DNA from: Thermodesulfovibrionia bacterium
GTDB lineage: Bacteria > Nitrospirota > Thermodesulfovibrionia > UBA6902
DNA: 32,630 bases
Direction: 5' to 3'
NCBI GenBank assembly: GCA_020057065.1
Contig: JAGVGM010000280.1
Coordinates: 1-32,630, forward strand
The translations under genes and the position numbers were made by a program. Under the pieces are notes generated by a model. That model was given only the letters and a program-made list of their open reading frames with translations. It was not told the DNA's origin and did no database searches. Of the stretch, positions 11,241 to 20,029 are shown piece after piece. Positions within the stretch are counted from its first letter, which is position 1, and each line of letters opens with the position of its first letter.

Positions 11241-12806
11241 TTAACCCAATATCTTATCAACTTCTTCACGATCAGCATCCATGACATAGGAAATTCCTGA
11301 TACATCCGCTGCTTCCCTGGTCAAGGCAGTAAGGTCGTTGCGATCAATATGTTTGAGAGCAAATTTCCTCGCCCCGGCCATAAACTGCTGCAAGCCCTGT
11401 TTTAACCTGTCGATATAGGAATACATCCCGATCGCGCCTGCGGGTATTTTATTAAAATCCTTACCAAAACGTTCTTTTAACTGAGCGCCTACAGCAAAGA
11501 GTCTGATATATCCATTTTCGATGTCCTCGCCCTCCATTTCCATCTTGTCCGCCATAAGCTTACCGTGGGTCTTTCCTACCATAGCTGCTGTAAAAATTGC
11601 ACGGCCTAAACAGATAGCTTTTACAAATGGAGCGCCGAGAGCGATGGCCTTGAAGATATGGTCTTCAAGGGAGAGTCCGCCTGCGATCGCGATAGGGGGG
11701 ACATAAGAGCCTTTAGCTGCAAGCCTCTTGCACATCTGATGTGTCAGACATTCGATCTGCACAGTGGGGATACCCCATTCATTCATCATTCGCCATGGGC
11801 TCATACCTGTGCCTCCGCCTGCACCGTCTATCGTAAGCATATCGATCTTTGCCTCGGAGGAGAACTTTATGGCCCTTGCCAGGTCGGCCGGCCTGTAAGC
11901 GCCGGTTTTCAATGTAACGTACTTGAATCCAAGTGAACGGAGGTGTTCGACTGTTTTATAAAAGGTATCCTCTTTGACCATACCAAGACGTGAATGACGC
12001 TCAAACTCTGTGATGCCGCCTGCCTTGAAAGCATTCTGGGCCGATGCAGTTGTCGGGTCAGGAAGAACGATGTAGCCTCTCTCGTTCAATTGCAGCGCCC
12101 TTTCTATCGAGCGTAGTTTAACCTCGCCGCCGATGTCTTTTGCGCCCTGTCCCCATTTTAGTTCAAATATATCAATGCCAAGTTTTTCCCTTACGTATTC
12201 AGGAACGCCGAGCCTGTAATCTTCTACATTTGCCTGAACTACTATGCCTCCGGTACCGTCGTACCATTTTTTAAAAGCGTTAACGCGGCGGTCCATTTCA
12301 GGTGATTTGGTCACCTTCCCATTTTTAAACTCCGCCTGAGGATCCATTCCGCAAACGTTCTCGCCTATAACGACCAGCACTCCGGATATTGCAGCGCCCA
12401 CAGCTACCTCATCCCAGTTAATGCGGGATATATCTGTAGAACCCACAGCTCCTGTAAATACAGGGAAGTTCATCTTGATACTGTTATCCGCGGCGACCGT
12501 GGTAGTCGTATCTACAGCAGGAAATCTTGCTTTATCGGAGTCAGCTTCAATACCGACCGCGCCTACTGCGGTACCCTGAATATTGAAATGGGAAAAATCA
12601 ATTGGATAATCCTTCTCGGAACCCGCAGTGATTTTACCAAAAGGCACAGGATAAATGACCTCTCTCCCTTTGAGGGCTGACCTCCCGATTTCACACGGTC
12701 CTTCACAACCGTCAATACAGGTTACGCATATACCTGATACCGGAGCGGGAGTAACTCTTGTTGTAGTGAGTGTTGCTGCACTGTAATTTGGTTTGCTGAA
12801 ACTCAT
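11241..12806 (-). CDS. FMN-binding glutamate synthase family protein with an N-terminal four-Cys motif
   Basis: The 521-residue protein matches the FMN-binding synthase domain of GltB. Signature segments are KWGQGAKDIGGE (218-229), DGAGGGTGMSPW (327-338) and IAGGLSLEDHIFKAIALGA (374-392). The glutaminase and GXGXG domains are absent, and the usual CNxC...CP cluster motif after the barrel is not seen. Instead there is an N-terminal CVTCIDGCEGPC (C27, C30, C34, C38) able to bind a [4Fe-4S] cluster. A full glutamate synthase is encoded at 14832-20029, so this one may use another substrate, or a different amine donor. The start has AAAGGAGGTGCTTAATG. It is followed by a ferredoxin and aor. Family is secure and the reaction unknown. 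Confidence 0.85.
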   Translation of the reverse strand: MSFSKPNYSAATLTTTRVTPAPVSGICVTCIDGCEGPCEIGRSALKGREVIYPVPFGKITAGSEKDYPIDFSHFNIQGTAVGAVGIEADSDKARFPAVDTTTTVAADNSIKMNFPVFTGAVGSTDISRINWDEVAVGAAISGVLVVIGENVCGMDPQAEFKNGKVTKSPEMDRRVNAFKKWYDGTGGIVVQANVEDYRLGVPEYVREKLGIDIFELKWGQGAKDIGGEVKLRSIERALQLNERGYIVLPDPTTASAQNAFKAGGITEFERHSRLGMVKEDTFYKTVEHLRSLGFKYVTLKTGAYRPADLARAIKFSSEAKIDMLTIDGAGGGTGMSPWRMMNEWGIPTVQIECLTHQMCKRLAAKGSYVPPIAIAGGLSLEDHIFKAIALGAPFVKAICLGRAIFTAAMVGKTHGKLMADKMEMEGEDIENGYIRLFAVGAQLKERFGKDFNKIPAGAIGMYSYIDRLKQGLQQFMAGARKFALKHIDRNDLTALTREAADVSGISYVMDADREEVDKILG

Positions 12807-13000: not shown

Positions 13001-14263
13001 TTAATTGCTTGAGATCATCAGCAGTTCAGCTCTATCACTTTCTTCATTCTTCCACTGTGTGGGGATGTTTTCCTTTAAAAATATACTATCTCCCCGACTA
13101 AGCCTGACTTCTATTCCCTCCACTGTTACTAAAATATGTCCGTCAAGAACGCAAATAAATTCAGGAGACTTTTTATGAAAAAAATGTCCCTGTAAAACAT
13201 TATCAGGCGGCATTTCAATAAATTTTGCATAAAGTTTTTCATCGCTCAGAATATCGTAGATCTTGATCCCCTCCTGAATATAAGGAGGAACTGAAACTAC
13301 AATGTCTTTTTTCAGAAGCCACGAATTTGTTAACGGCTTAGTATCTTTTAATAATTCACCCGGACTGACATTGAGTGCACTGCATATCTGAAGAAAAGAG
13401 CTGAGGGACGGGCTTATCTGGTTGTTCTCAAGCTGTGAAATAAAGCTTGCAGAGAGCTCGACCCTGTCAGCCAGTTCTTTCTGGCTTATGCCGATCCTTG
13501 TTCTGACATTTTTTATTTTTTGACCAATTTCGACAGCCGGCTCCTTCCTGGGTAAAGTAATTGTTACAAACTTATCATTTGCCTCAAAGAGATGGGGCTT
13601 GAATGCTTCCCTGTCCTGCCTGCCGTCCAGTTTCAGCGCTTTTATATACAACTGATCATTTCTTTTGTAGAGGTCAAAAACAACCTGCGTTATGTGTCTC
13701 AGATTTGCTTTGAATTTCTGACTGTGGGCATCTTTTTCCAAGATCCAGTAGGCTACAGTGTCAAGATCATATAACCTTGGACACATATACGTAAACAGCC
13801 GGTATGTAATATTTTCATCTCCCCAGAGATCCTGCATTCCTGTCAGGCTGTCAAAAATATATCTTGCACCAGGAGGAAAACTGTCTTCAATGGAGTTGAG
13901 GGTCTGCGTAAATTCGTCAGTGTCTTTTGGATTGCCGATCCTTATGATTTTAAGGTCTGTGGGCTTTTCATAAAATTTCAGAAATGTATTGTCATTCTTG
14001 CCCTTACCGGAAGTGAAACAATCGATTAGAACAAAATTATTTGCATCAATGAAACTGCTGATAGAATTAATAATACTCTGAGGCGATCTATTGAAACTTA
14101 CATAAATGACTTTCTGTGCATCAGAAAAAGACCGGCGGACAAAATTATGAATGAAAATGCTGTATGGTGTGCCTGCGTCGACTTCCCAGACAACATTGTC
14201 TCCTATGTATAAAGAGTCAATAAGCCTGTCAAGATTTATGATCCCGGATGAAATTTTAGACAT
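13001..14263 (-). CDS. Three-domain regulator: degenerate KaiC/RecA-like domain, XRE helix-turn-helix, cupin
   Basis: The 420-residue protein starts like a KaiC-family RecA domain (GIINLDRLIDSLYIGDNVVW, residues 7-26). The Walker A lysine motif is replaced by EVDAGTPYSIF, while a Walker-B-like YIFDSLTG (135-142) remains. An XRE helix-turn-helix follows (246-305: VRTRIGISQKELADRVELSA, then SFISQLENNQISPS). A C-terminal cupin (about 345-419) contains GHFFHKKSPEFICVLDGH and RGDSIFLKENIPTQW. XRE-cupin proteins are small-molecule-responsive regulators. The added ATPase-like domain probably cannot bind ATP normally and may serve as a protein-interaction or sensing module. The gene lies between the orphan glutamate-synthase-like gene and the divergent glutamate synthase operon, so both are likely targets. 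AGGTGA precedes the ATG. Confidence 0.85.
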   Translation of the reverse strand: MSKISSGIINLDRLIDSLYIGDNVVWEVDAGTPYSIFIHNFVRRSFSDAQKVIYVSFNRSPQSIINSISSFIDANNFVLIDCFTSGKGKNDNTFLKFYEKPTDLKIIRIGNPKDTDEFTQTLNSIEDSFPPGARYIFDSLTGMQDLWGDENITYRLFTYMCPRLYDLDTVAYWILEKDAHSQKFKANLRHITQVVFDLYKRNDQLYIKALKLDGRQDREAFKPHLFEANDKFVTITLPRKEPAVEIGQKIKNVRTRIGISQKELADRVELSASFISQLENNQISPSLSSFLQICSALNVSPGELLKDTKPLTNSWLLKKDIVVSVPPYIQEGIKIYDILSDEKLYAKFIEMPPDNVLQGHFFHKKSPEFICVLDGHILVTVEGIEVRLSRGDSIFLKENIPTQWKNEESDRAELLMISSN

Positions 14264-14287
14264 GGCAAACGGTCACCTATTGGCATA

Positions 14288-14535: not shown

Positions 14536-14559
14536 TTGTAGCAAACTACAATATTGTAG
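14536..14559. promoter_or_regulatory. TTGTAG/CTACAA inverted repeat with a third half-site, possible activator site
   Basis: TTGTAG-CAAA-CTACAA (14536-14551) is a perfect 6-bp inverted repeat, and a further TTGTAG sits at 14554-14559. It lies about 50 bp upstream of the sigma-54 promoter, in the usual zone for enhancer-binding proteins. The protein that binds it is unknown. Confidence 0.4.
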
Positions 14560-14604: not shown

Positions 14605-14620
14605 TGGCACTATTTTAGCA
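14605..14620 (+). promoter_or_regulatory. Sigma-54 (RpoN) promoter, -24/-12 type
   Basis: TGGCACTATTTTAGCA has the invariant GG (14606-14607) and GC (14618-14619) with exactly 10 bases between them and a perfect TGGCAC -24 box. It points toward the glutamate synthase genes, a classic class of nitrogen-controlled targets. The predicted start is near 14631. Confidence 0.65.
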
Positions 14621-14671
14621 TTTCAATGAGTAATGACACATATTTACATAAGAATGATATCAATGATATGT

Positions 14672-14700
14672 TTGACAAAAAACACCTTAATTGATAGTAT
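14672..14700 (+). promoter_or_regulatory. Strong sigma-70-like promoter upstream of the leader terminator
   Basis: TTGACA (14672-14677) and TAGTAT (14695-14700) are separated by exactly 17 bp. The predicted start near 14707 lies only about 70 nt before the terminator at 14734-14780, so the direct product would be a very short RNA or an attenuated leader. Confidence 0.6.
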
Positions 14701-14713
14701 AACACCTACGGCT

Positions 14714-14726
14714 AACGGTTACCGTT
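14714..14726. promoter_or_regulatory. 13-bp palindrome AACGGT-T-ACCGTT
   Basis: This perfect 6-1-6 palindrome lies just after the predicted sigma-70 start site, a repressor-like position. It can also form a small RNA hairpin in the leader. Confidence 0.4.
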
Positions 14727-14733
14727 CAAAACA

Positions 14734-14780
14734 GCGTCCGTACCACTTTAATTGCAGAGGTGGTAATGACGCTTTTTTTT
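14734..14780 (+). terminator. Intrinsic terminator/attenuator before the glutamate synthase operon
   Basis: GCGTC-cg-TACCAC (14734-14746) pairs with GTGGTA-at-GACGC (14760-14772), giving 11 base pairs around a 2x2 internal loop, followed at once by eight T residues. No plus-strand gene lies upstream within the spacer, so it must act on RNA started at the promoters at 14605 and 14672. Confidence 0.75.
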
Positions 14781-14807
14781 GCCTAAATATAAATATGGAG
14801 TTATAAT
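14779..14807 (+). promoter_or_regulatory. Sigma-70-like promoter immediately upstream of the glutaminase gene
   Basis: TTGCCT (14779-14784) and a perfect TATAAT (14802-14807) are 17 bp apart, with a predicted start about 18 nt before the ATG at 14832. It would allow transcription of the operon independently of the upstream attenuator. Confidence 0.5.
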
Positions 14808-14831
14808 CTCAATTACTTAAGGTTTTGCAAA

Positions 14832-15941
14832 ATGTGTAGACTTGCTGCAATAACATCAAAAGATTATTTCTCGCCCACAGAGAACATAACCGCCCTGGAG
14901 ACCATGAAAGAAGGGCATGACGGTTCCGGTATGGGTCTTATCCTGAAAGGCCTCGGCGGTGAATTTGAGGAATTAAAAGACTATCCCATTCTTTCGGGCA
15001 TCTGTTCCAAGAACGGAATGCATACGCTTGATGAGTACCTGAATAAACTTGGTTTTAAACTAAAATACGCCTGGACCCCGAGGATCAAGCCGGTAAAAGG
15101 GATCTCTCACAGGGACTACTATTTTGCGAGGGCTTATGATTATCCGGATGTTTACAAGGACAGATCCATGGAAGAGAAGGAAGATTTACTTCTGAAAACG
15201 AGATTGACCCTCAGGAAATTCGGCGAGAACGACGAGTCGATAATCGTATTTTCTTTTTATCCTGATGTGCTGACATTGAAAGAGGTTGGGGACCCGCTTG
15301 AGCTTTGTGAGTTTTTCGGTCTCGAGAAATCTACGCTCAAGGCAAAGATCATCTTTGCGCAAGGAAGACAAAATACCAATTACGCTATTAACCTCTATGC
15401 ATGTCACCCATTTTTCATTCAGGGCTTCGGCGCGATGGTAAACGGCGAAAATACGGCATTCGTGCCTATAAGAGAGTTCTTGATGAGCAGGAACTTTCCG
15501 GGCTATATCGGTTATAACAGCGACAGCGAAGTTTTCTGTCACATCTTACACTACACATGCAAACGACTCGGGTATCCGCTTACATATTATAAAGATGTTA
15601 TCACTCCTCTAAAGCAGAAGGAGATTGACGCAAGACCAGACAGCGAAGCTGCGAGGTTGATGAAAATATCACTGAGACCGCTTTGCATAGACGGCCCTAA
15701 TTGCGTTATTGCATTTACGCCTGATGGGACCTGCATCATGGTCCAGGATGCAAAAAAACTGAGGCCTGGGGTTGTTGGAGGGATTAAGGGTAAATACGGA
15801 TTTATGTCCGAGGAATGCGGGCTTGACAGCATAATTCCCGAAAGAGATAAAGCGCAGGATGTTTTTCCCATGAAATATGACATGGTTATTGTCAAACCAG
15901 ATGCGCAGGAGGTGATGGTATGGAACCAGCTTCACGGTTAG
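14832..15941 (+). CDS. Glutamate synthase glutaminase subunit (class II glutamine amidotransferase, archaeal-type split GltB1)
   Basis: The 369-residue protein begins MCRLAAITSKDYFSP, so the catalytic Cys of class II (Ntn) amidotransferases is exposed as Cys2 after Met removal. Further family features are HDGSGMG (about 30-36) and GFGAMVNGENTAF near 199-211. It releases ammonia from glutamine for the FMN synthase domain encoded by the next gene, whose start codon overlaps its last 22 bases. Having the amidotransferase as a separate protein is the archaeal-type arrangement, while most bacteria fuse it into GltB. AAGG lies nine bases before the ATG. Confidence 0.88.
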   Translation: MCRLAAITSKDYFSPTENITALETMKEGHDGSGMGLILKGLGGEFEELKDYPILSGICSKNGMHTLDEYLNKLGFKLKYAWTPRIKPVKGISHRDYYFARAYDYPDVYKDRSMEEKEDLLLKTRLTLRKFGENDESIIVFSFYPDVLTLKEVGDPLELCEFFGLEKSTLKAKIIFAQGRQNTNYAINLYACHPFFIQGFGAMVNGENTAFVPIREFLMSRNFPGYIGYNSDSEVFCHILHYTCKRLGYPLTYYKDVITPLKQKEIDARPDSEAARLMKISLRPLCIDGPNCVIAFTPDGTCIMVQDAKKLRPGVVGGIKGKYGFMSEECGLDSIIPERDKAQDVFPMKYDMVIVKPDAQEVMVWNQLHG

Positions 15942-17581
15942 ACCATAATCACGAACTGGCGATAAAGGATCTGCCATATATAGTCAGATGGAATGAAGAA
16001 AGGTGTAAACGCTGCGGAAGATGCACAGCCGTATGTCCTATGCTTTCTATAGAACCTGCAGTCGTTGTTAAACGTGTAGTACAGTCAGAGGGAATTACAC
16101 CTGAGCCGAAGGCAGCGCGTGTCGTCACTACAATGGTGAAACAAACAACAAACATAGAGCGTTATTGTATAGGTTGCGCAACTTGTGCACTCGTATGTCC
16201 TAACGAGGCTATTGAGCCGGAGTATAATCCGCAAAGTAAATTCAACTTCCACAAAAACAAAGGCGGGCATCCTTACAGAAGGGGAGGCAGAAGAAATGAT
16301 CCCAATCCTTCCACGCTGGACAGGCTGAGGTTTACAAGAATCTCGATGCTCACCGACCCGGCGCTTGATGCGGGAAGACATGAATTCAGGATAAGGACGT
16401 ACCTGGGCAGGATACTTCCCGCAGAAGAACTGCCGTTGAAAATGATTGACGGCAAGCTTGCTGCGGATAAAATTTCCGGTAAATTCATACCGCCTGTCCG
16501 TGAGATATATCCCGTAATGATAGGAAGTATGTCCATAGGGGCTCTTTCTCCGACTATGTGGGAAGGGCTTGCAATGGGCATCACGTATCTCAACGAAGTT
16601 GAAGGAATGCCTGTTGTTATGTGCTCAGGTGAAGGCGGTATGCCGCAGAGACTTCTTAAGTCCCGGTTCATAAAATATTTTATCCCGCAGATCGCCTCAG
16701 GCTATTTCGGGTGGGATGAAATCGTCAGGGCGCTCCCCCACATGATTGAAGACCCATGCGCTATAGAAATCAAATACGGTCAGGGCGCGAAGCCCGGAGA
16801 CGGCGGACTCCTTATGGCGCACAAGGTTCTGAAGTTAATATCAGAAATAAGAGGCGTGCCGATGGGCGTAGACCTTCCGTCCCCGCCAACACACCAGACT
16901 CAATATTCGATTGAAGAATCCGTTGCAAAGATGATCCAGTCCATGTCAATGGCATGGGGTTTCAGGGTGCCTGTTTATCCGAAGATTTCAGGCACTATAA
17001 CCGCCAAGGCTGTTTTAAATAACCTTGTAAGAAATCCATATGCCGCTGCCCTTTCCATTGACGGGGAAGACGGCGGGACCGGAGCTGCATACAACGTCTC
17101 GATGGACACTATGGGACACCCCATTGCATCAAATATAAGAGAATGCTATCTCGACCTTGTAAAACAGGGCAAGCAGAACGAATTGCCGCTTATTGCTGCA
17201 GGTGGTATTGGTAAAAAAGGCAATCTTGCTGCAAATGCTGCAGCTCTGTTTATGTTAGGGGCCTCTGCCGTTTCAATCGGGAAATATATTATGCAGGCTG
17301 CAGCGTCCTGTCATGGGGATGAGATGAACCGGTGCAATGTGTGCAACCTCGGGAAATGTCCGAGAGGTATCACGACACAGGACCCGAAGCTTTACAGAAG
17401 GCTCGATCCTGACGCAGTTGCCGAGAGGGTTGTTGAAGTTTATAAATCTTTGGATGTGGAACTTAAAAAGATATTCGCCCCTATGGGCAGAAGCACCGAA
17501 TTGCCTATAGGCATGTCAGACGGCATCAGTACCGATGATCATGCTATTGCCGAGAGGCTGCAGATAAGTTATGTTTGTTGA
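15920..17581 (+). CDS. gltB: Glutamate synthase FMN subunit with N-terminal 2x[4Fe-4S] ferredoxin domain (archaeal-type GltB2)
   Basis: The 553-residue protein has two ferredoxin motifs, CKRCGRCTAVC (29-39) and CIGCATCALVC (83-93). These are followed by the FMN-binding synthase barrel with KYGQGAKPGDGG (about 285-296) and DGEDGGTGAAYN. The iron-sulfur motif CNVCNLGKCPRG (about 473-484) corresponds to the [3Fe-4S] site of GltB. It combines 2-oxoglutarate and ammonia to make glutamate with electrons from NAD(P)H or ferredoxin. A strong AGGAGGTGATGGT precedes the ATG. Together with the genes on either side it forms a complete split glutamate synthase. Confidence 0.92.
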   Translation: MEPASRLDHNHELAIKDLPYIVRWNEERCKRCGRCTAVCPMLSIEPAVVVKRVVQSEGITPEPKAARVVTTMVKQTTNIERYCIGCATCALVCPNEAIEPEYNPQSKFNFHKNKGGHPYRRGGRRNDPNPSTLDRLRFTRISMLTDPALDAGRHEFRIRTYLGRILPAEELPLKMIDGKLAADKISGKFIPPVREIYPVMIGSMSIGALSPTMWEGLAMGITYLNEVEGMPVVMCSGEGGMPQRLLKSRFIKYFIPQIASGYFGWDEIVRALPHMIEDPCAIEIKYGQGAKPGDGGLLMAHKVLKLISEIRGVPMGVDLPSPPTHQTQYSIEESVAKMIQSMSMAWGFRVPVYPKISGTITAKAVLNNLVRNPYAAALSIDGEDGGTGAAYNVSMDTMGHPIASNIRECYLDLVKQGKQNELPLIAAGGIGKKGNLAANAAALFMLGASAVSIGKYIMQAAASCHGDEMNRCNVCNLGKCPRGITTQDPKLYRRLDPDAVAERVVEVYKSLDVELKKIFAPMGRSTELPIGMSDGISTDDHAIAERLQISYVC

Positions 17582-17695: not shown

Positions 17696-20029
17696 ATGAA
17701 AAAGATTATTATTAAAGGCAACATCAAAGGTAAACGAACTCCGTCAAGGATTTTTGAAGAAGAAATTCAGGACGCGGTTCGCCATGGCGCGCGTGAACTC
17801 CAGGTTGTTGCTGACGGACAGCACGGCATCGGCGGCCGGATATGGCCGAGAGGCGAGTCAGTAAAGATTTTTATTGAAGGTCCTGTCGGGCAGAGACTTG
17901 GCAGCATGGGCATGTTCGGCACAGAGATTGTGGTGAAAGGAAGCGTCTCAGATGATGTGGGCTGGATAAACTGCGGGGCCAGGATAACCGTGCTCGGCGA
18001 CGTCACAAACGGAGCGCATAACGCCGCCGCACAGGGGGTGCTTTATGTGCAGGGCGGAGGAGGCGCACGTTGTGACACGATGACAAAGCATAACCCCAAG
18101 TTTGACCCGCCTCAATCATGGTATTTCAGAGATGTAGGCGACACATTTGCAGAATTCAAGGCAGGCGGCATAGCGGTTGTTTGCGGAGTAAATCCGAGAA
18201 ATCCGGAGAATATTCTCGGCTACCGTCCCTGTGTGGGAATGGTAGGTGGAATAGTCTATTTCCGGGGGCAGATCCAGGGTTACAGTGAAAGCGATGTGAA
18301 ACTTCTTGATTTGACCGATCAGGACTGGCAATGGCTGACCTCCAATATGAAGCCTTATCTTGAGGCTATAGAGCGTACTGAAGATTTCTCTGAACTTACC
18401 CGTTCAAGAGATGAATGGAAAAAACTTCTTCCATTCACAGCTCAGGAGCGCGCAAAGAAAAAAGTTTTTAAGATGTCTATCACAGAGTTCCGTAATAATG
18501 TTTGGGAGTCAGGCGTCGGCAAAGGCGGAATTTTTGCAGAATATCTTAACCATCCCTGCACTGTTCTTCCTTACATCACAACCGGAACAGACAGGAGATT
18601 TAAGCCTGTATGGAATAATTACAAATATTCTCCTCCATGTGAACATGCATGTCCGAGCGGGATACCCACACAAAAACGCGCACAGCTTATCAGGGCCGGA
18701 AAACTTCACGAGGCGCTTGAACTGGTCCTTCAGTACAGCCCGCTTCCTGCTTCAGTGTGCGGTGAGATATGTCCCAATCTCTGCATGAGCGCCTGTACGA
18801 GGTCGAGGGTTGACAGCGCATTCAATATAAAGGAAATGGGAAAGGCAAGCCTTAATGTAAAGGCCTCAAAGCGGGCGAAAAGGACCTCTAAAAAAGTTGC
18901 CGTTATAGGCGGCGGGCCCGGAGGGTTATCTGCTGCATGGCAGCTTGGACTGAAAGGACATGATGTTGATATTTACGAAGCTGCCGGAAAACTCGGAGGC
19001 AAGCTCGAACTCTGCATCCCAAGAGAAAGGCTGCCGCAAAAAGTGCTGAAGAAAGAGCTGTCAAGGTTTGAAGAGACCGGTATCACCGTTCATCTGAAAA
19101 CAGCAGTGAATAAAAAGAAATTTGAAGAGATTTACAAAAAACATGATGTCGTAGTAGTTGCATGCGGGGCGCACAAACCGAGAATGATGACGGTCCCGGG
19201 AGCCGAGATCATGGTCTCTGCCTATGATTTCCTGAGAGGTATAAATACCGGCAACGTCCCGAAAATGAAAAATCAGAGGGTAGTCATCATTGGAGCCGGC
19301 AATGTCGGTATGGATGCCGCGGCGCAGGCTTTTCACTGCGGGGCAAAAGAGGTTACGGCGGTTGACATTCAAAAACCCGCTGCATTCGGCAAAGAGCTTG
19401 AGATCGCACAATCACTCGGAACAAAGATCGTCTGGCCCAAATTCACTGAGAAATACGTGAAAAAGGATAAAAAGATATACTTTACCGACGGTTCATCGCT
19501 TGATGCGGATGCCGTCATAATTTCAATTGGCGACATGCCTATGACAGAGTTCCTGCCGCCTTCAGTGCATACTGATAAGAACGGATGGATACAGGCAGAC
19601 GAGGTCGGACATACCTCTGACCCGAAAGTTTACGCGATCGGAGATGCTACAAAACTTGGTCTCGTGACACATGCGATCGGTCAAGGCAGAAAGGCTTCAG
19701 AAGCAATTCATGCCCTGCTTTCAGGAAGGTCTTATTACATGCCTGCTCCGCGGCCGTTGGTGCCCTACGAAAAAATAAAAACATCTTATTACGATGTCTG
19801 CAAAGGCGAACCCTTTAAGCCTGAGACAGAAGCAAACCGCTGCATGTCATGCGCTGTATGCAGGGACTGCCACATGTGTGAGGCGACCTGCTACTACGGG
19901 GCCATAAGCAGGAAAGAATACGAAGACGGCTCATATGAATACGTAGTTGATGAGAACCTCTGTATCGGTTGCAGCTTCTGCGCCGGTATCTGCCCCTGCG
20001 GTGTGTGGGAGATGACGGAGAATATTTAG
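17696..20029 (+). CDS. Fusion of GXGXG domain, GltD-type NAD(P)H oxidoreductase and ferredoxin domain
   Basis: The 777-residue protein joins three parts. Residues 1 to about 250 form the GXGXG beta-helix domain normally at the C-terminus of GltB (GSMGMFGTEIVVKGSVSDDVG; GVLYVQGGGGARC). From about 310 comes a GltD-like subunit with N-terminal [4Fe-4S] Cys (CEHACPSG, CGEICPNLCMSAC), an FAD site VIGGGPGGLSAAW (about 403-415) and a second Rossmann site VVIIGAGNVGMDAAA (about 528-542). The C-terminus (about 715-777) adds a ferredoxin domain, CMSCAVCRDCHMC and CIGCSFCAGICPC. It would feed NAD(P)H or ferredoxin electrons to the FMN subunit. No clear ribosome binding site precedes the ATG, and the start is chosen because the beta-helix domain follows directly. 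Confidence 0.9.
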   Translation: MKKIIIKGNIKGKRTPSRIFEEEIQDAVRHGARELQVVADGQHGIGGRIWPRGESVKIFIEGPVGQRLGSMGMFGTEIVVKGSVSDDVGWINCGARITVLGDVTNGAHNAAAQGVLYVQGGGGARCDTMTKHNPKFDPPQSWYFRDVGDTFAEFKAGGIAVVCGVNPRNPENILGYRPCVGMVGGIVYFRGQIQGYSESDVKLLDLTDQDWQWLTSNMKPYLEAIERTEDFSELTRSRDEWKKLLPFTAQERAKKKVFKMSITEFRNNVWESGVGKGGIFAEYLNHPCTVLPYITTGTDRRFKPVWNNYKYSPPCEHACPSGIPTQKRAQLIRAGKLHEALELVLQYSPLPASVCGEICPNLCMSACTRSRVDSAFNIKEMGKASLNVKASKRAKRTSKKVAVIGGGPGGLSAAWQLGLKGHDVDIYEAAGKLGGKLELCIPRERLPQKVLKKELSRFEETGITVHLKTAVNKKKFEEIYKKHDVVVVACGAHKPRMMTVPGAEIMVSAYDFLRGINTGNVPKMKNQRVVIIGAGNVGMDAAAQAFHCGAKEVTAVDIQKPAAFGKELEIAQSLGTKIVWPKFTEKYVKKDKKIYFTDGSSLDADAVIISIGDMPMTEFLPPSVHTDKNGWIQADEVGHTSDPKVYAIGDATKLGLVTHAIGQGRKASEAIHALLSGRSYYMPAPRPLVPYEKIKTSYYDVCKGEPFKPETEANRCMSCAVCRDCHMCEATCYYGAISRKEYEDGSYEYVVDENLCIGCSFCAGICPCGVWEMTENI

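Follow-up and report, generated by a model that had tools for sequence, protein, structure and literature searches.

The 5' region of a split glutamate synthase operon occupies a 568-bp gap between two divergent genes in the window, by which we mean the whole 32,630-nucleotide stretch of Thermodesulfovibrionia DNA that was analysed. On the right of the gap lies gltB1 (positions 14832-15941, forward strand), whose product we read as the probable glutaminase (class II amidotransferase-like) subunit because it begins with MC, has conserved C2, GHDGSGMG and NGEN motifs and is encoded ahead of the other subunits, preceding a Glu_synthase-domain gene. Within the class, GltB1 sequences share about 70-90% identity; Pfam, NCBIfam and the PDB gave no match for the protein at the thresholds applied, and its predicted structure has a pLDDT of 56. 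It is followed by a Glu_synthase-domain subunit with a 4Fe-4S ferredoxin domain (15920-17581, forward; Pfam PF01645, E = 3.7e-61) and, judging from domain matches, by a glutamate synthase GXGXG and pyridine-nucleotide (NAD(P)-binding) oxidoreductase subunit (17696-20029, forward). On the left of the gap, the divergent gene (13001-14263, reverse strand) encodes a putative regulator composed of a KaiC-like domain, an XRE-type helix-turn-helix (HTH) and a cupin (Pfam ATPase/KaiC, HTH_3 and Cupin_2); inspection by eye revealed no evident Walker A motif in the KaiC part. Further along the reverse strand, 11241-12806 encodes a second Glu_synthase/IMPDH-like-domain protein with partial 24% identity to the product of 15920-17581. 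Glutamate synthase is one half of the main route of ammonia assimilation and, to our knowledge, little is known about its control in deep-subsurface Nitrospirota. The relatives compared below are Nitrospirota, mainly Thermodesulfovibrionia metagenome assemblies. One of them (L002, genome G044) encodes a GltB1 89% identical to that of the window in a genome placed in another family, which points either to operon transfer or to mis-binning.

A preliminary description of this DNA had placed a sigma-54 promoter, a sigma-70 promoter, a terminator and a separate TATAAT promoter ahead of gltB1, and the three promoters are indeed found there. The sigma-54 site (TGGCACTATTTTAGCA, 14605-14620, forward, inferred start near 14631) has a single mismatch to TGGCACN5TTGCW with the GG-N10-GC core intact, and is the best of 11 window matches to a two-mismatch sigma-54 pattern, 11 being no more than chance would give. 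The sigma-70 promoter P1 (TTGACA-17-TAGTAT, 14672-14700, forward, inferred start near 14707) and the third promoter just ahead of the gene (TTGCCT-17-TATAAT, 14779-14807, forward) each match the consensus at 10 of 12 positions, and the -35 box of the latter consists of the end of the terminator's T-run plus GCCT. The terminator hairpin itself spans 14733-14780 on the forward strand, with arms at 14733-14749 and 14757-14773 and a U-tract at 14773-14780. Its earlier placement at 14734-14780 and its eight T residues hold, but the 11-bp stem originally proposed does not: the actual stem has 6 + 9 bp around a 2x2 internal loop, owing to which a simple terminator scan overlooked it. The hairpin is more stable than expected (z = -3.45, with 1 of 200 shuffles equally stable), and it has the makings of an intrinsic (Rho-independent) terminator, namely a U-tract behind a G+C-containing stem whose pairing has been kept in evolution. 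From the coordinates, RNAs ending here are predicted to measure about 74 and 150 nt, in agreement with the 70 and 150 nt foreseen previously.

Among 107 distinct relatives, comparison of the gltB1 upstream regions revealed one hairpin design directly before a T-run in 43, with the form [A/G]GCGTCT-N-ATACCA, a free loop, TGGTAT-AGACGCT and T7, often followed by GCC. When the 43 leaders were aligned by MAFFT, blind to structure, 90.7% of the cells over the 13 pairs counted were paired, 28 cells were double-changed versus 10.5 +/- 2.6 after shuffling, and the covariation score was 0.272 versus 0.044-0.114 for slid partners. A larger alignment of 63 sequences, fitted to the covariance model, gave 48 double-changed cells versus 19.5 after shuffling. 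The covariation search in relatives that the preliminary description had proposed, taking absence of conservation as the outcome that would speak against it, thus found a conserved hairpin with covarying pairs. The outer stem GCGUC/GACGC varies hardly at all (GCGTC is identical in 35 of the 43 leaders and reads GCGTT in 5 more), an identity exceeding what pairing requires, and a single unpaired 5'-side base separates the outer from the inner stem in 38/43. The loop, by comparison, is free, and the unpaired 5' part of the RNA is conserved only within lineages, mostly not class-wide. A DNA-binding site in place of an RNA hairpin is unlikely, since the distance between the arms varies by more than 20 nt. 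In two upstream regions (L103 and L118) the 5' arm is retained and the 3' arm is replaced by short AGAGCAG-type repeats, an arrangement that we take from its sequence to be a natural loss of the terminator.

The hairpin is closely tied to gltB1. A covariance model run over 61 genomes gave strong matches almost only at one site per genome, before gltB1, with the window's own copy scoring as a divergent family member (37.6 bits). At a threshold of E <= 0.001, the hairpin was detected in 65 of 230 genomes of the class Thermodesulfovibrionia and not in the other 165; it is nearly always single-copy, on which ground a multi-copy sRNA was rejected, and it lies ahead of gltB1 in 63 of the 65 (counting G009, where the locus is split over two contigs whose ends overlap in sequence). 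All 19 distinct leaders outside the model-building set also precede gltB1. The two matches elsewhere, in G075 and G228, are both weak, and the one in G075 was discarded as an unrelated terminator. Mapped on the GltB1 tree, hairpin-bearing leaders fall in both main halves, and their distribution takes 14 changes to explain versus 30 with shuffled labels, a pattern that fits an old element often lost. As a separate observation, in G228 (L224 / L242, G228:C93) the whole module of promoter, operator and hairpin stands ahead of genes that we annotated by eye as mvhD-metV-metF-like rather than ahead of gltB1.

The promoters recur among the relatives to different extents. A sigma-70 promoter with a score of at least 9/12 precedes the hairpin in 43/43 hairpin leaders versus 6.9 in shuffles, so that P1 has counterparts throughout; the distance from the end of its -10 box to the hairpin is usually 23-35 nt, from which terminated RNAs would be about 65-85 nt long. 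The sigma-54 site is restricted to a minority of relatives that includes the window's lineage. It is nonetheless supported against shuffles, occurring in 15 of the 107 upstream regions (4.2 in shuffles) and, together with a palindrome further upstream, in 13 (0.4 in shuffles). A clear counterpart of the third promoter (score 9 or more) was found in 8 of the 32 leaders with room for it versus 2.4 in shuffles, a minority drawn from several lineages. In 23 of the 43 leaders fewer than 45 nt separate the terminator from the ATG, too few for another complete promoter, and in eight this gap measures only 24-27 nt; gltB1 in those leaders must therefore be reached through the terminator.

Three elements had escaped the preliminary description: an 18-bp operator, its regulator and an enhancer. 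The putative operator (ACGGCTAACGGTTACCGT, class consensus ACGGYAANCGNTTRCCGT) is a class-wide palindrome located at +1 of P1 (14708-14725), and a second copy covers the divergent regulator's Shine-Dalgarno sequence and start codon (14262-14279). The same palindrome overlies these signals in 11/11 homologues of the regulator gene, nearly all of which also have a TTGACA promoter before it. Orthologues of the regulator occur in 11 of the 61 genomes, the window's included, and in several other lineages they are likewise divergent to gltB1. The operator precedes gltB1 in 7 of 11 genomes with the regulator gene versus 3 of 43 without it (Fisher p = 1.8e-4 over 54 genomes, kinship ignored), and it has been lost from several congeneric relatives. 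The simplest reading is that the KaiC-HTH-cupin protein is an autoregulated repressor that would also cover the gltB1 start, repression rather than activation being suggested by the position of the operator. Like XRE-cupin repressors such as PuuR, the protein combines an HTH with a cupin and matches the PuuR model weakly; unlike PuuR, it scores 50.8 bits against a cut-off of 211 and has an N-terminal KaiC-like domain, the comparison being one of protein domains. In three upstream regions (L111, L126 and L127), the same position behind the operator is taken by a terminator-like hairpin whose stem differs (AACGCC...GGCGTT).

The palindrome located 59 bp upstream of the sigma-54 site (CTACAATATTGTAG, 14546-14559) is the probable enhancer (UAS) of that promoter. 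In most relatives having both, the palindrome CTACAANNTTGTAG lies 58-59 bp before the sigma-54 site. Within the window's genome it occurs only before gltB1 and as three clustered copies at amtB-glnK, and because these are its sole other copies we consider it likely to be the enhancer of a nitrogen regulator in this group. The three copies (L238, G000:C312:12296-12397) stand between the ammonium transporter and PII genes, and the palindrome was also seen near amtB/glnK in several relatives. The genome encodes rpoN, which together with the GG-N10-GC core and the putative enhancer site completes the features of a sigma-54 (RpoN) promoter. The enhancer sequence could serve to trace the nitrogen regulon in uncultured Nitrospirota.

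The anatomy of the region, the covarying pairs of the hairpin and its near-strict linkage to gltB1, the pairing of operator with regulator and the enhancer shared with amtB-glnK can all be read directly from the sequence. We consider it probable, with some reserve, that the leader acts in cis to attenuate transcription of the split glutamate synthase operon, subject to control by nitrogen and by a repressor. The hairpin, a candidate for an uncatalogued RNA element, most likely limits the amount of glutamate synthase. Initiation would take place at P1, covered by the operator of the KaiC-HTH-cupin repressor, while in the window and some relatives a second start would be provided by the nitrogen-responsive sigma-54 promoter upstream. 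Both transcripts would meet the conserved intrinsic terminator, which the P1 RNA reaches after 25-35 nt, and most would stop there at a length of about 74 or 150 nt, leaving the read-through fraction alone to make glutamate synthase. This scheme presumes that transcription does stop at the hairpin in vivo, that the regulator acts as a repressor and that the extent of read-through is under control. For the leaders with a gap of 24-27 nt, which offer no other way into the gene, attenuation in cis would be unavoidable if the hairpin terminates.

The conserved stem, with no antiterminator to accompany it, poses a concrete question as to how a leader of this type might be opened. Pairing of the 5' segment with the 5' arm, the 3' arm or the loop was no better than with permuted partners, and an attenuator or riboswitch with an alternative antiterminator was rejected because no upstream segment pairs above these controls. 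The absence of a recognizable riboswitch, remarked on previously, is borne out by Rfam, in which neither the window nor eight relatives matched any family at gathering or permissive thresholds. A peptide-coded attenuator was likewise discarded, as no conserved leader ORF runs over the terminator and the candidates present in two leaders only are unrelated; the window's hairpin contains an SD-ATG-MTLFFA reading that is not conserved in relatives. Given the conserved stem sequence and bulge and the lack of an alternative fold, read-through is most likely set by a hairpin-reading factor or by polymerase/Nus factors, and not by an RNA switch. One version of this, which we put forward tentatively and hold to be possible but rather doubtful, is that the bulged hairpin is the target of a dedicated antitermination or termination factor or of a ligand, with the terminator itself acting as the sensor and no alternative fold involved.

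The preliminary description had left open whether the region is an attenuated leader or a source of nitrogen-controlled free RNAs. The presence of rpoN and the enhancer shared with amtB-glnK speak for nitrogen control, and the cis leader is favoured over free RNAs because the hairpin is nearly always single-copy and tied to gltB1 and because 23 of the 43 gaps are too short for another promoter. The promoter-terminator unit could still be a stand-alone sRNA acting on other mRNAs under low nitrogen, with the third promoter driving glutamate synthase. The unit is complete, having its own promoter and terminator and yielding RNAs of 65-150 nt, nitrogen-controlled sRNAs are known in other phyla, and in leaders of the window's type the third promoter, recurring as it does in several lineages, could drive the gene alone and bypass the terminator. 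Against this, the hairpin almost never stands alone, being found beside gltB1 in nearly all genomes with a match; conservation of the loop and of most of the unpaired 5' part does not extend across the class, leaving no shared seed; and half of the leaders have no room for the third promoter. We therefore regard a stand-alone sRNA as unlikely.

We consider it quite unlikely that the hairpin is a constitutive damper, that is, a fixed leaky terminator that keeps glutamate synthase low relative to promoter activity while regulation takes place wholly at initiation. Control of initiation is well marked by the operator, the sigma-54 site and the enhancer, and the searches for an antiterminator fold, a leader peptide, an ANTAR protein and an Rfam match all came back empty, but for mere damping the pairing would suffice, and the near-invariant stem letters and the one-base bulge exceed that need. 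Within the window alone, each promoter pattern is matched about as often as chance would produce, which is what can be said for an assembly of unrelated promoter- and terminator-like matches in A+T-rich intergenic DNA; conservation, covariation and the fixed order of the elements across the class refute this reading and make it scarcely credible.

RNA-based control at the glutamine synthetase/glutamate synthase (GS/GOGAT) step is known from the glutamine riboswitches (glnA and Downstream-peptide RNAs) and from cyanobacterial NsiR4/gifA, unlike which the gltB1 leader has neither an Rfam match nor an aptamer-like conserved loop. The closest working parallel in outline is NalA, reportedly first listed as an sRNA, of which the gltB1 leader is not a member. 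NalA, the nirBD leader of Pseudomonas, comprises a sigma-54/NtrC promoter, a leader RNA and a terminator that is overcome through antitermination by the ANTAR protein NasT (PMC12830290). Both systems have a sigma-54 nitrogen-assimilation promoter firing into a leader terminator, but NalA is opened by NasT, and the gltB1 leader also has a sigma-70 promoter with an operator. The nasF leader of Klebsiella, which uses an ANTAR/NasR mechanism with hexaloop hairpins (PMC3369931), similarly places a terminator before a nitrogen assimilation operon as its single target, but its ANTAR and hexaloop features have no equivalent in the gltB1 leader. An ANTAR antitermination leader, defined by two A1/G4 hexaloop hairpins, of which the second overlaps the terminator, and by an ANTAR-domain protein, was rejected: ANTAR proteins were found neither in the window's genome nor in any hairpin genome among the 61, and paired A1/G4 hexaloops in the leaders were not above chance. 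A literature search, with subscription papers outside its scope, gave no description of the gltB1 leader. By its sequence, the leader appears to be a new RNA element that belongs to a familiar kind of regulation, and the region supplies a defined RNA element outside Rfam, a putative operator with its regulator and a candidate nitrogen enhancer.

Finally, we compared the 5' end of the RNA with the bases behind the T-run, to which it can pair (GGCAAA/UUUGCC, with lineage variants such as CCGGUC/GACCGG). The mean duplex energy was -5.93 versus -5.35 +/- 0.28 for permuted partners, 9 of 500 permutations being as good, a borderline result that is no more than suggestive of a helix that could form only in the read-through RNA. 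Complementarity of this kind was noted in L089, L029, L038, L134 and others, for example as CAGGUAA/UUGCCUG and UCCGGUC/GACCGGU.
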